A stretch of DNA of 64,000 bases, taken from positions 62,001 through 126,000 of the forward strand of contig NZ_QUWK01000009.1 of NCBI RefSeq assembly GCF_003429665.1. The letters are read 5' to 3'. The notes under the pieces are model-generated. The model did not search any database, was not told the origin of the DNA, and worked only from the letters and a program-made list of their open reading frames with translations. The translations under genes and the position numbers were made by a program. Position 1 is the stretch's first letter; the number at the start of each line of letters is the position of its first letter. Below are positions 2,005-5,277 of the stretch, in pieces. The stretch comes from Sphaerochaeta halotolerans (GTDB lineage: Bacteria; Spirochaetota; Spirochaetia; Sphaerochaetales; Sphaerochaetaceae).

Positions 2005-2845
2005 GCCTGGCCTCCTTGGTTATTGCTTCCAGCAGTTCTTTGAAATAGGTGTGATAGTGCTCATCTTCCTCGACGGCTAGATGCCCGTCACTGGAGAGAA
2101 GTGCCAAATGCTCGTCGTAGGGTAAGGAACCAATAATCTTGAGTCCGTGTTCTTTTGCGTAGATTTCGCTGGGGTTCTCCCCCTCCTGGGTCTTGTTCAA
2201 GAGCACTGCAGAGGGTTTCCCCATAAGGGTGACCAGCTCATGGGCCATCGCCAGGTTGTGCGCCCCAAAAATGGTTGGTTCAGCAACCAAGAGGCAGAAG
2301 TCAGCGTTGCCTACTGTCTCAGTTACCAAGCATCCGCTACCGGGAGGGCTGTCAATGATAACAAGGTCAGTGGACTGTTCTCTCATGAGAGCCTTGATGA
2401 TAGGGACTGCAGAACTTTCCCCTATTTTCATCTCCCCAGAGAGGAAGGTTATTCCATTCTTCCGTCCTCGTTTTACAATACCCAATGGGCGCTGCTCTTC
2501 ACGGAGTGCACCTTTCGGACAGATATATGTACACAGTCCACAGGAGTGACAGATCTCATCGAAGATCAGGAGATTTTTCCCTATAAGTGCCAAGGCGTTG
2601 AACGCACAAGCATCCACACATGTGCGGCAACCGTCGCAAAGATCCTGGTTCACCACTGGTTTGGGTTCGGTAACGACGTATTCCCCCACAATGGTTGGTT
2701 TGATAAAGATATGCCCGTTTGGTTCTTCCGTGTCGCAATCGATGTAGGTTGCGTTTGCTGCCACAGCGGCAAGGTTTACCGATACCAGGGTTTTTCCGGT
2801 ACCTCCCTTGCCACTGAGAACTGCGATGGTAGCCTTAGTGCCCAT
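1976..2845 (-). CDS. MinD-type ATPase with 2x[4Fe-4S] ferredoxin domain (first of pair)
   Basis: 289 residues from the chosen ATG. Walker A GKGGTGKT lies near residue 12, and cysteine clusters CDGCRTCVDAC and CHSCGLCTYICP at about 60-100 predict two [4Fe-4S] clusters. The DSPPGSGC block is the conserved second nucleotide-binding element. An upstream in-frame ATG at 2869 would add eight residues. 2845 is preferred because it places the P-loop at the usual distance from the N terminus, though neither start has a clear ribosome-binding site and coupling to the overlapping NifX-like gene is likely. Paralogue of the next gene; same orange-protein-type context. Confidence 0.86.
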   Translation of the reverse strand: MGTKATIAVLSGKGGTGKTLVSVNLAAVAANATYIDCDTEEPNGHIFIKPTIVGEYVVTEPKPVVNQDLCDGCRTCVDACAFNALALIGKNLLIFDEICHSCGLCTYICPKGALREEQRPLGIVKRGRKNGITFLSGEMKIGESSAVPIIKALMREQSTDLVIIDSPPGSGCLVTETVGNADFCLLVAEPTIFGAHNLAMAHELVTLMGKPSAVLLNKTQEGENPSEIYAKEHGLKIIGSLPYDEHLALLSSDGHLAVEEDEHYHTYFKELLEAITKEARHASDSDPQR

Positions 2846-3197
2846 GATGAAATCCAGGATGTACCTCATTCAGGGATGAGAGCTTCCCTTCCAGGAAGTT
2901 TGCAATAGTGTCGGCGATACTCAGGTTCGGTGCCTTGAGCATGCTGATGTTTGCTGCACTCAATACGTTTGAAGCATTCTCTCCCAAGCGGAAGGTGATC
3001 AAGCTGTCAATCTTCTGGTCAGCCAGAAATTGTGCAGCTTGGATACCTGCTCCCCCTGGTGCCTCAGCTGCTTTGTTATCCAAAAATGTACTTGTCTCTT
3101 TCTCTGTATCATAGAGGCAATACACGGGAGCTCGTCCAAACGAGACACAAATGGCGCTGTCCAAGCTCTTTTCTTCTGCAGGTACGGCTATAATCAT
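2835..3197 (-). CDS. NifX/NifB-type iron-molybdenum cofactor-binding domain protein
   Basis: 120 residues forming one dinitrogenase iron-molybdenum cofactor (NifX/NafY/ORP) domain: MIIAVPAEEKSLDSAICVSF at the N terminus, then the GGAGIQAAQFLADQKID segment typical of the family. The Desulfovibrio orange protein of this family binds a Mo-Cu-S cluster; nitrogenase genes are absent here, so a nitrogen-fixation role is not implied. The ATG at 3197 has AAGGAGAT eight bases upstream and overlaps the DUF134 stop by four bases. A longer in-frame reading upstream lies within the DUF134 gene and is rejected. Metal bound is unknown. Confidence 0.87.
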   Translation of the reverse strand: MIIAVPAEEKSLDSAICVSFGRAPVYCLYDTEKETSTFLDNKAAEAPGGAGIQAAQFLADQKIDSLITFRLGENASNVLSAANISMLKAPNLSIADTIANFLEGKLSSLNEVHPGFHHGH

Positions 3198-3577
3198 TCT
3201 GGTATATCTCCTTGTCGGTGTTGGTGGTGACCCCGGCCCATTCTGCAACCACGACCACAGCCGTAACGATGGGGACCACTATGGTCATTCAGGTGGTACT
3301 CTCCACCTTCAATGAAGAGCAGTTTGCCCTCCACCAGTGACTCTGCCAGTTTTCTTCTGGCACTTTCATAGATGCCTTGGACGGTAGTCCTGGCAACATT
3401 CATCTGCCCAGCGCACATCTCCTGGGTCAATCCTTCTTGGTCGATGAGCCGTATGGTTTCATACTCATCAACGGTCATGATAATAGAGGGGGTCTCATCC
3501 AAGGGGGCCCCAAGGGGCCCGTACTTGGTGTTTTGGGGAAGTGCACAGACATTTCTCCATTTGCGTGGACGGGGCAT
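3194..3577 (-). CDS. DUF134 helix-turn-helix protein, possible regulator of the operon
   Basis: 127 residues beginning MPRPRKWRNVC, the DUF134 N terminus. A sigma-70 region-4-like helix-turn-helix spans about residues 35-75 (TVDEYETIRLIDQEGLTQEM followed by MNVARTTVQGIYESARRKLA). The C terminus is rich in His, Gly and Cys (HRYGCGRGCRMGRGHHQHR), a probable metal-binding tail. GGAGG lies just upstream of the start. DUF134 genes nearly always sit beside NifX-like and DUF5320 genes. I infer that it is the DNA-binding regulator recognising the palindromes upstream of this operon; the sequence does not prove that. Confidence 0.85.
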   Translation of the reverse strand: MPRPRKWRNVCALPQNTKYGPLGAPLDETPSIIMTVDEYETIRLIDQEGLTQEMCAGQMNVARTTVQGIYESARRKLAESLVEGKLLFIEGGEYHLNDHSGPHRYGCGRGCRMGRGHHQHRQGDIPE

Positions 3578-3585
3578 GGCTCCTC

Positions 3586-3834
3586 CTATTCGTTGCTCTC
3601 TTTCATCTGAGCATCAATTCGTTTGAGTTCTTCCTCAAGCATGCGCTTGCGCTCAGCAAGGGAAACAGGAGCGACGGGAGGTGCGTACATTCCCCAGCCG
3701 AGACCTCGGCCATATCCTGCCCCGCGACCCATTCCGTAGCCATAGCCAACTCCAGCTCCGCCACGGCAGTATCCCATGCCTCTTCCAGTCATTGGTCCGT
3801 AGCCCATAGGGCCTGTTCCATTTCTTCTTGGCAT
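3586..3834 (-). CDS. DUF5320 glycine-rich small protein
   Basis: 82 residues, first gene of the operon. The N-terminal half is a low-complexity Gly/Tyr/Arg/Met stretch opening MPRRNGTGPMGYGPMTGRGM. The last 25 residues form a charged helix, probably a short coiled coil (LAERKRMLEEELKRIDAQMK). This architecture is the DUF5320 family, small cytoplasmic proteins of unknown function found next to NifX/Mrp genes. AAGGAG is seven bases upstream of the ATG. A single cysteine argues against a cluster scaffold. No function assigned. Confidence 0.82.
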   Translation of the reverse strand: MPRRNGTGPMGYGPMTGRGMGYCRGGAGVGYGYGMGRGAGYGRGLGWGMYAPPVAPVSLAERKRMLEEELKRIDAQMKESNE

Positions 3835-3860
3835 ATCATGACTCCTTAAGTATAATAATT

Positions 3861-3882
3861 GTTATCGACATATGTCAGTAAC
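3861..3882. promoter_or_regulatory. Operator palindrome, copy 1
   Basis: A 22-bp near-perfect inverted repeat with arms GTTATCGACAT / ATGTCAGTAAC and central CATATG. It begins eight bases downstream of the -10 box and so covers the predicted transcription start of the DUF5320-DUF134-NifX operon. Its twin lies exactly 40 bp away. Probably a repressor or activator site; the protein is unknown. Confidence 0.75.
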
Positions 3883-3889
3883 TATCTGT

Positions 3890-3918
3890 ACTATACTAAG
3901 GTTATCGGCATATGTCAA
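3890..3918 (-). promoter_or_regulatory. Sigma-70 promoter of the orange-protein-like operon
   Basis: On the minus strand, TTGACA (3918-3913), a 17-base spacer and TATAGT (3895-3890). It lies about 55 bases before the first start codon and is bracketed by the two palindromes. Confidence 0.75.
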
Positions 3919-3922
3919 TAAC
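3901..3922. promoter_or_regulatory. Operator palindrome, copy 2
   Basis: Second copy of the same inverted repeat (arms GTTATCGGCAT / ATGTCAATAAC); 19 of 22 bases match copy 1. On the minus strand it contains the TTGACA -35 box, so protein bound here would compete with or contact RNA polymerase. Confidence 0.75.
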
Positions 3923-3954
3923 TTTTGAAGATATTTGTATCATTGTTGAAACAC

Positions 3955-3985
3955 CAAGAAAAGACCCTTCGGTATGAAGGGCCTT
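3955..3985 (-). terminator. Rho-independent terminator after purA
   Basis: On the minus strand GCCCTTC-ATACC-GAAGGG (stem 3981-3965) is followed by TCTTTTCTT, about 20 bases past the purA stop. Confidence 0.75.
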
Positions 3986-4005
3986 TGGTACAACTGAAAT
4001 GCTGT

Positions 4006-5277
4006 CTACATGATGATAATCTGGTCGCGCTCAGGTCCAACCGAGATGAACTTGATCGGTGCACCTACCAACTCTGCAAGACGCTTGCAGTAGTTTTGTG
4101 CATTCCGTGGAAGGTCGTCCCAGGTGCGTGCACCGCTGGTGTCACTCATCCAGCCATCGTACTCTTCATAGATTGGCTCGGCAATTTCCTGCTGAGCTGT
4201 CTCCGGCAGGTAGTTGATGACCTCTCCGTTTACCCGGTACCCCGTGCATACCTTGATCTTCTCGAATCCATCAAGGACGTCAAGTTTGGTAAGGGCAAGG
4301 GAGGTGAAGCCGTTGATCCAGCAAGAAAATTCGGTGGCAACTGCATCAAACCACCCACAACGGCGAGGGCGACCGGTCGTTGCACCATATTCACCACCAA
4401 CCGAGCGCAGTTTCTCTGCGTTTTCATCAAACAATTCAGTCATGAATGGGCCACCACCAACACTGGTTGAGTAGACCTTGGTCACCCCAATGACCTCGTC
4501 GATCCTGCTTGGTCCGAGACCGCTCCCAATTGCTGCCCCACCCGAGGTAGGACTGCTGCTTGTGGTGTAGGGATAGATACCCCAGTCAAGGTCTCGCATG
4601 ACACCCAGCTGACCTTCAAGAAGAATCTTACTACCCTCTTTATACGCCTGTCGTACCACAGGAAGGGTGTCGATAATCTTGGCTCCGTAGGTTTCCTTCC
4701 ACTTCATGCAGAGCTCCATGATTTCATCTACGGTGTACGCTTTCAAGCCAAAGTAGGCAAGTTCACGATTCTTCTGGGGGAGTGCCATTTCAATGCGATT
4801 CCTGAGACGGTCCGCATCGAGGAGATCTGCAGCTCTGATACCACTGCGGGCGGCTTTGTCGCTGTAACACGGCCCAATACCACGCTTGGTTGTACCGATC
4901 TGCATCTTTGCACTCTTGGATTGCTCCTGTGCACCATCGAGTGCTCTGTGGTAAGGCATGATCAAATGGGCACGTACGTCGATGAACAGATTGTCCACTG
5001 GTACGCCCTTGGATGTAAGGGTCTCCAGTTCTTCGCTCATGGTCTCGAAATTGACCACCGTCCCTGCTCCAACAATATTCATCGTCTCGGGATTGAAGAT
5101 ACCTGAAGGAATGATATGCAGGGCAAACTTGCCCTTGTCGTTGATGACAGTATGCCCTGCGTTGTCTCCGCCTTGGAAGCGGATGACCAAATCGGAGTTC
5201 ACTGCCAAATAGTCTACAATGCGGCCTTTGCCTTCATCGCCCCACTGGGCTCCTACAATTGAAGTAACGTTACTCAT
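4006..5277 (-). CDS. purA: Adenylosuccinate synthetase
   Basis: 423 residues, the usual length. PurA joins IMP and aspartate using GTP to make adenylosuccinate, the first committed step to AMP, in the cytoplasm. Visible motifs: GAQWGDEGKGR at residues 9-19 (GTP-binding loop with catalytic Asp), GGDNAGHTV at about 36-44 (IMP site with the catalytic His), and TTGRPRRCGWFDAV near 300. It is the third gene of a purine-salvage operon, overlapping the preceding phosphoribosyltransferase by four bases (ATGA), so hypoxanthine salvaged to IMP upstream is passed toward AMP. Confidence 0.97.
   Translation of the reverse strand: MSNVTSIVGAQWGDEGKGRIVDYLAVNSDLVIRFQGGDNAGHTVINDKGKFALHIIPSGIFNPETMNIVGAGTVVNFETMSEELETLTSKGVPVDNLFIDVRAHLIMPYHRALDGAQEQSKSAKMQIGTTKRGIGPCYSDKAARSGIRAADLLDADRLRNRIEMALPQKNRELAYFGLKAYTVDEIMELCMKWKETYGAKIIDTLPVVRQAYKEGSKILLEGQLGVMRDLDWGIYPYTTSSSPTSGGAAIGSGLGPSRIDEVIGVTKVYSTSVGGGPFMTELFDENAEKLRSVGGEYGATTGRPRRCGWFDAVATEFSCWINGFTSLALTKLDVLDGFEKIKVCTGYRVNGEVINYLPETAQQEIAEPIYEEYDGWMSDTSGARTWDDLPRNAQNYCKRLAELVGAPIKFISVGPERDQIIIM

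Follow-up and report, generated by a model that had tools for sequence, protein, structure and literature searches.

The closest described gene set is that of the Desulfovibrio ORP operons, which contain a Fer4-MinD pair, a NifX/ORP-type protein and Mrp; MrpORP has been tied to Fe-S biogenesis (PMC6345978). The regulation of these operons involves sigma54, IHF and a cognate activator (PMC6345978; PMC3897727). Among DNA-binding proteins, DeoR of Bacillus subtilis contacts bases through R34 and R39, has the operator half TTGAACA and places two dimers on each operator region (PMC11229326). For DUF134 (UPF0251, COG1342), the original prediction knew of no described DNA target, and this stood within the open literature searched: neither a target nor a function was found there, and the sole mention of UPF0251 was a transposon insertion in Thermoanaerobacterium. 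Nothing relevant to DUF5320 or to the operator letters was found in the same literature.

The locus analysed here lies in the window, by which we mean the whole 64,000-nt stretch of Sphaerochaeta halotolerans DNA. Pfam assignments confirmed the predicted gene order DUF5320-DUF134-NifX-MinD-MinD-MBL on the minus strand. The first gene encodes DUF5320 (3586-3834; PF17253, 57.3 bits). It is followed by the DUF134 gene (3194-3577; PF02001, 71.1 bits against a cut-off of 27), the proposed autorepressor of 127 aa with a sigma-region-4-like HTH and a His/Cys-rich tail that holds 2 Cys and 6 His. The recognition helix, residues 60-72 (NVARTTVQGIYES), is encoded at 3362-3400, and its residues 63, 64, 67 and 68 covary with operator letters. 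Downstream are a NifX/orange-protein-like (Nitro_FeMo-Co) gene (2835-3248; PF02579, 64.1 bits), two genes for MinD/ParA-type ATPases with Fer4 domains (PF01656 and PF00037), one carrying two 4Fe-4S motifs (1976-2869) and a second with 4Fe-4S motifs (1129-2004), and a gene for a metallo-beta-lactamase-fold (MBL) protein (299-1132; PF00753). Mrp and a second NifX-like gene, both read by eye, come next along, outside the window. The operon carries the ORP-type gene content of a Fer4-MinD pair, NifX/ORP and Mrp. The upstream neighbour is an adenylosuccinate synthetase-like gene (4006-5277), its identity assigned by eye, and an intrinsic terminator (3960-3986, minus strand) separates it from the operon promoter.

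Twin near-identical 22-bp palindromes with the centre CATATG had been described around this promoter, 40 bp apart, one containing the -35 box and the other the predicted transcription start. This description was borne out. Operator 1, the promoter-upstream palindrome (GTTATCGGCATATGTCAATAAC), occupies 3901-3922 and operator 2, the promoter-downstream palindrome (GTTATCGACATATGTCAGTAAC), occupies 3861-3882, both on the minus strand. Each 22-mer has 9 of 11 self-complementary pairs around CATATG, and the two are 91% identical over 23 nt with a start-to-start distance of 40. The -35 element TTGACA (3913-3918, minus strand) lies within the upstream half of operator 1 and constitutes a half of that operator. 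The -10 element TATAGT (3890-3895, minus strand) lies between the two operators at a spacer of 17 nt, and the pair of elements matches 11 of the 12 consensus letters of a sigma70 promoter. The predicted +1, at about 3883, is the edge of operator 2, which begins there. A second possible promoter (CTGACA/TATACT, 3878-3849) has its -35 as a half of operator 2. Read along the minus strand, the order is the neighbour's terminator (3986-3960), operator 1, the -10 element, operator 2, a ribosome-binding site and DUF5320. A sigma54 -24/-12 element (GG-N10-GC) was absent from 3835-4000 on the minus strand, and sigma54 control of the operon was rejected on this ground.

Single palindromes with at least 9 of 11 pairs numbered 21 in 64 kb. 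A pattern search with the consensus GTTATYGRCATATGYCRRTAAC, allowing up to three mismatches, hit only two places in the 2.93-Mb genome, which were the window's twin palindromes, and the reversed pattern gave no match in the same genome. Therefore, single palindromes are not rare, but so similar a pair is, and the genome holds no further copy at this threshold.

Within the genus, DUF134 was present in 22 of 26 genomes and the motif in exactly the same 22, where two neighbouring copies, about 40 bp from each other, lie shortly upstream of DUF134; the four genomes without DUF134 lacked the motif too. This match is weak when taken alone, because loss of the locus removes both partners. Some genomes have additional sites acting in trans, placed ahead of a separate NifX-MinD-MinD operon (locus L042) or of a second DUF5320 gene (L061, with a similar site in L060). 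In other Spirochaetia, CATATG palindromes stand 30-80 nt before DUF134 and differ in the letters beside the centre, e.g. TTATGCACATATGTGCAATA. Treponema sp. CETP13 exhibited a small scattered regulon of four operators, one each ahead of NifX-MinD, of DUF5320-DUF134, of Mrp and of a DUF134-NifX fusion-like frame.

A scan of GTDB species genomes with TTATKSRCATATGYSMATAA, blind to genes, returned at least 119 stretches, of which 80 loci were analysed; their genes were found by profile HMMs built from the window's own proteins. In these 80 listed loci, 61 of 82 sites lay between -120 and +400 nt relative to the 5' end of a gene for DUF134, NifX, DUF5320, MinD or MBL. Hosts among the listed matches included Clostridia, Chloroflexota, Omnitrophota, Elusimicrobia, Thermotogota, Vibrionaceae and Psychromonas. 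Of the other 21 listed sites, several are probably targets as well, beside genes named by eye as DUF89-like, MoeA-like and DUF3793-flavodoxin, and others are chance; matches inside a polB-like and a gyrB-like gene were discarded as chance. With one mismatch allowed, 50 motif-bearing genomes held 1-4 copies each and the reversed control gave 0. DUF134 was present in all 50 of these genomes, ten of which had no DUF134 match in the fetched locus. In Gammaproteobacteria, 2 of 274 genomes had the motif, both with DUF134, and DUF134 exceeded the cut-off in 5 of the 274.

Three Planctomycetota MAGs have TTATGGGCATATGCCCATAA before a DUF89/ARMT1-like gene (by-eye name), with DUF5320 downstream of it in two of the three; this gene is a possible new regulon member. 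In Acetobacterium paludosum (L078, at about 2490), an operator lies between NifD-like and MoeA-like genes (by-eye names), a placement that hints at a molybdenum link. In locus L097, twin operators 35 bp apart (4895 and 4930) sit at a DtxR-like metalloregulator gene (by-eye name), upstream of DUF5320 and DUF134. Five GCGC-type perfect palindromes (TTATGCGCATATGCGCATAA) came from Verrucomicrobiota/Kiritimatiellae MAGs, and no gene of the DUF134 set was found near them in the fetched stretches of the five loci; perhaps they belong to another regulator or to a DUF134 subtype acting elsewhere.

In the opposite direction, DUF134 genes were chosen solely by their Pfam match in Spirochaetia, Omnitrophota, Clostridia, Chloroflexota and Gammaproteobacteria, and their upstream regions were compared with TTATNNNCATATGNNNATAA. 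Of its 14 fixed letters, 12 or more were matched upstream of 53 of 113 genes, compared to 5 of 1130 shuffles. With a freer template that included TATATA centres, an operator was found for 155 of the 202 non-redundant DUF134 genes pooled from all sources, compared to 6 of 202 shuffles. About a quarter of the DUF134 genes showed none by this template; some of these have a variant operator and some, perhaps, are regulated otherwise. The proposed operator class is a palindrome centred on CATATG or TATATA, TTATNNNN-AT followed by AT-NNNNATAA, near a DUF134 promoter, and both sites of the window belong to it. Thus the palindrome recurs in orthologous promoters across phyla, including other spirochaetes and Clostridia, as the original prediction required, and it is not widespread beside unrelated genes, since nearly all of the 1-4 sites per genome lie in the operon's gene set.

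For the covariation analysis, the operator half-site was written TTAT-h5h6h7h8-AT, and 155 operator-DUF134 pairs were compared. The most informative protein column was residue 68 for h5, residue 64 for h6 and h7, and residue 63 for h8, all in the recognition helix. At h8, C accompanies R63 and T accompanies Q63 or S63; at h5, R68 mostly comes with G, and N, G, A or S68 with T. In the window, the protein has R63 and shows the predicted C in 4 of 4 half-sites; it has G68 and shows the predicted T at h5 in 2 of 4, with C in the other 2. Columns of NifX, which served as the phylogenetic control, reached up to 0.39 bits for h5, compared to 0.52 for DUF134 residue 68, and for h6 this control, on 89 pairs, left no DUF134 signal beyond the NifX background. 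Because shared descent alone yields mutual information of up to 0.39 bits, the case rests on paralogues and not on raw covariation.

In some Omnitrophota genomes, DUF134 is present as two or three paralogues that differ in helix and operator (L079 with L236, both genes in L139, and L309-L348). Each helix was found with its own operator: SQQTFSRI with GAGT, SRPTFSRI with GAAC, HRSTVSRI with GCAC, SRQTFGNI with TGGC or TAGC, and SR(P/A/Q)SFGRI with GAGC. A simple rule was derived from the first set and applied to held-out half-sites of newly fetched genes, found by a template with no preferred letter at h5 or h8, and it gave the right letter at h8 in 59 of 60 and at h5 in 58 of 60. Because operator letters covary with its helix, also between paralogues of one genome, DUF134 itself is the likely reader of the operator. 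The central prediction, that DUF134 regulates its own operon through the palindromes, was supported at the sequence level by operators across phyla, by their restriction to the gene set and by the residue-to-base covariation.

The geometry of operator and promoter seen in the window recurs in other phyla. In TTG-type operators, a -10-like hexamer stood 16-18 nt past TTGRCA in 43 of 83, and any other single spacing occurred at most 4 times. Promoters matching at least 9 of 12 letters overlapped TTG-type operators in 48 of 54, compared to 3 when shuffled; the overlap was weaker for non-TTG operators (20 of 41, compared to 5 shuffled). In several other spirochaetes the operator lies between a TTGACT -35 and the -10. 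Twin operators were found in 42 upstream regions; the distance between them was 28-41 bp, with a mode of 38-40, and no pair stood at 42-79.

We consider it very likely that the palindromes are operators of the operon's own DUF134 and that they mediate signal-released negative autoregulation. A pair of DUF134 molecules, presumably a dimer bound physically to the DNA, would recognise a -35-like half-site present as an inverted repeat, TTAT-TGAC-AT followed by AT-GTCA-ATAA. Each recognition helix would read the four letters beside the centre via residues 63, 64, 67 and 68, which on TTATTGACATATGTCAATAA would face h8, h7, h6 and h5, respectively. DUF134 on operator 1 would cover the -35 and block sigma, and a second dimer, bound 40 bp further downstream to operator 2, would sit over the start site. 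Dimers placed on the -35 and the start site would therefore repress, with autoregulation as the result. The DUF5320-DUF134-NifX-MinD-MinD-MBL-Mrp operon would be held off or low until a signal frees DUF134.

Repression in preference to activation is suggested by the position of the sites. A sigma-region-4-like HTH, and an operator half that is itself the -35 hexamer, would also suit a protein that binds these sites but activates, or does both, for example by standing in for sigma region 4 at the -35 or assisting it there. We regard this as unlikely, since the sites lie over the -35, the spacer or the start region and not upstream of the promoter, a promoter whose -35 and -10 come this close to consensus should work without an activator, and a second operator at +1 suits repression better. 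The binding protein could in principle be encoded elsewhere, as a regulator of the Crp/Fnr, MarR or SorC type, with DUF134 merely co-travelling. Palindromes of the 22-bp kind suit many dimeric regulators. However, operator letters follow the DUF134 helix even among paralogues of one genome, so that a co-travelling partner would have to vary in step with that helix, and every motif genome checked has DUF134; an unrelated regulator is accordingly very improbable. The same tracking of protein residues, at 1-4 copies per genome, speaks against DNA cruciforms, RNA hairpins or relics of mobile elements. Both palindromes are inverted repeats and one starts at +1, as such structures might, but operator 1 lies outside the transcript and yet both are conserved alike and in phase with the promoter, which leaves this explanation with a negligible probability.

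The releasing signal would probably be the status of metals or of Fe-S/Mo-Cu clusters, perceived via the Cys/His tail or via NifX. As an extension of the autoregulatory reading, and in line with the original prediction, DUF134 may, at slightly less than even odds, be a metal- or cluster-sensing repressor that responds to iron, Mo/Cu or Fe-S supply via the tail, a zinc ribbon or NifX. Four kinds of C-terminus were seen: the short Cys/His-rich tail of the window protein, a zinc-ribbon-like CxxC...CxxC, a fused NifX, and none. These kinds, together with targets that include NifX/ORP-like, Fer4-MinD, Mrp and MBL genes, make a metal or cluster signal reasonable; in addition, MrpORP has its link to Fe-S biogenesis (PMC6345978), and one blind-scan site precedes a MoeA-like gene (by-eye name). 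On the other hand, the tail could be structural zinc, that of the window protein holds only 2 Cys, and some tail-less DUF134 still have good operators, so the predicted DNA binding is independent of the tail. In nine loci, DUF134 and NifX are fused in one frame, each behind a CATATG-centred operator, and the NifX half of these fusions may be the sensor.

As a small HTH autorepressor acting at a palindromic operator, DUF134 would be of a known kind. On the present comparisons, the new elements would be the family, the operator, the -35-sharing design and the specificity code. DUF134 occurs in more than half of the sampled Omnitrophota genomes, in about 40% of the sampled Clostridia and in many spirochaetes. 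A broader and more tentative proposal, which we consider somewhat doubtful as a whole, is that DUF134 proteins are widespread stand-alone sigma-region-4-like regulators whose half operator is the -35 hexamer, whose code of about four residues has diversified among paralogues (TGAC, TGGC, GCAC, GAAC, GAGC, GAGT), and which, sometimes as fusions, exert feedback on the NifX/ORP-carried supply of Fe-S/Mo-Cu cofactors. The target and the residue-to-base code make DUF134 function directly testable and regulons predictable from sequence alone. The operators also offer an entry to the NifX/MinD/Mrp (orange-protein-like) cofactor systems of anaerobes, which are poorly understood, and a sigma-region-4-like repressor with -35 hexamer half-sites bears on how regulators evolve from promoter-reading machinery.

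The fold was modelled by AlphaFold2 on a 57-sequence alignment of the window and fetched-locus proteins. The mean pLDDT was 84, with residues 31-90 at 95 or higher and a low-confidence tail beyond about residue 96. The top Foldseek matches were sigma region 4 (5fgm, and sigmaE region 4 on -35 DNA, 2h27) and the operator-bound DNA-binding domain of DeoR (7bhy), with an rmsd of 0.5-0.9 A over 40-48 residues and E-values of only 0.08-0.3 because the match is short. VIA-align gave Z values up to 7.4, a level graded by the tool as possibly a mere common arrangement. The window protein scored under the Pfam cut-offs for sigma70 region 4 (PF04545, 14.1 against 24.1; PF08281, 11.8 against 25.7), and weak PF04545/PF08281 matches were present in 53-54 of the 57 members. 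By sequence profile, the nearest solved HTH was DeoR (E = 3e-6). If its chain index and the paper numbering differ by two residues, R34 and R39 of DeoR correspond in the sequence alignment to residues 63 and 68 of DUF134. The sigma70 counterparts are presumably R584 at residue 63 and Q589 at residue 68, and the helix register looks the same.

Compared with known systems, the operon's regulator is a member of Pfam DUF134 (PF02001)/UPF0251/COG1342, to which an operator and a specificity code are added here. The Desulfovibrio ORP operons share a similar gene set, with the Fer4-MinD pair, the NifX/ORP-type gene and Mrp, but sigma54 acts there, whereas a sigma70-like promoter with predicted DUF134 operators is found here. 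DUF134 may resemble sigma70 region 4 in fold, given the top structural matches over about 47 residues, and its half-site TTGACA is the -35 consensus and serves as the promoter's -35; it differs in having no other sigma regions, in a site that is an inverted repeat and in a Pfam score under the cut-off. The SorC/DeoR repressors (Bacillus subtilis DeoR, 7bhy/8r7y) supply the nearest solved HTH by profile and one of the top fold matches; their operator half TTGAACA is similar, as would be the placing of two dimers on each operator region. However, the C-terminal sugar-phosphate-binding effector domain of that family is missing in the 127-aa window protein, the DUF134 sites are separate palindromes about 40 bp apart, and the target genes are different.
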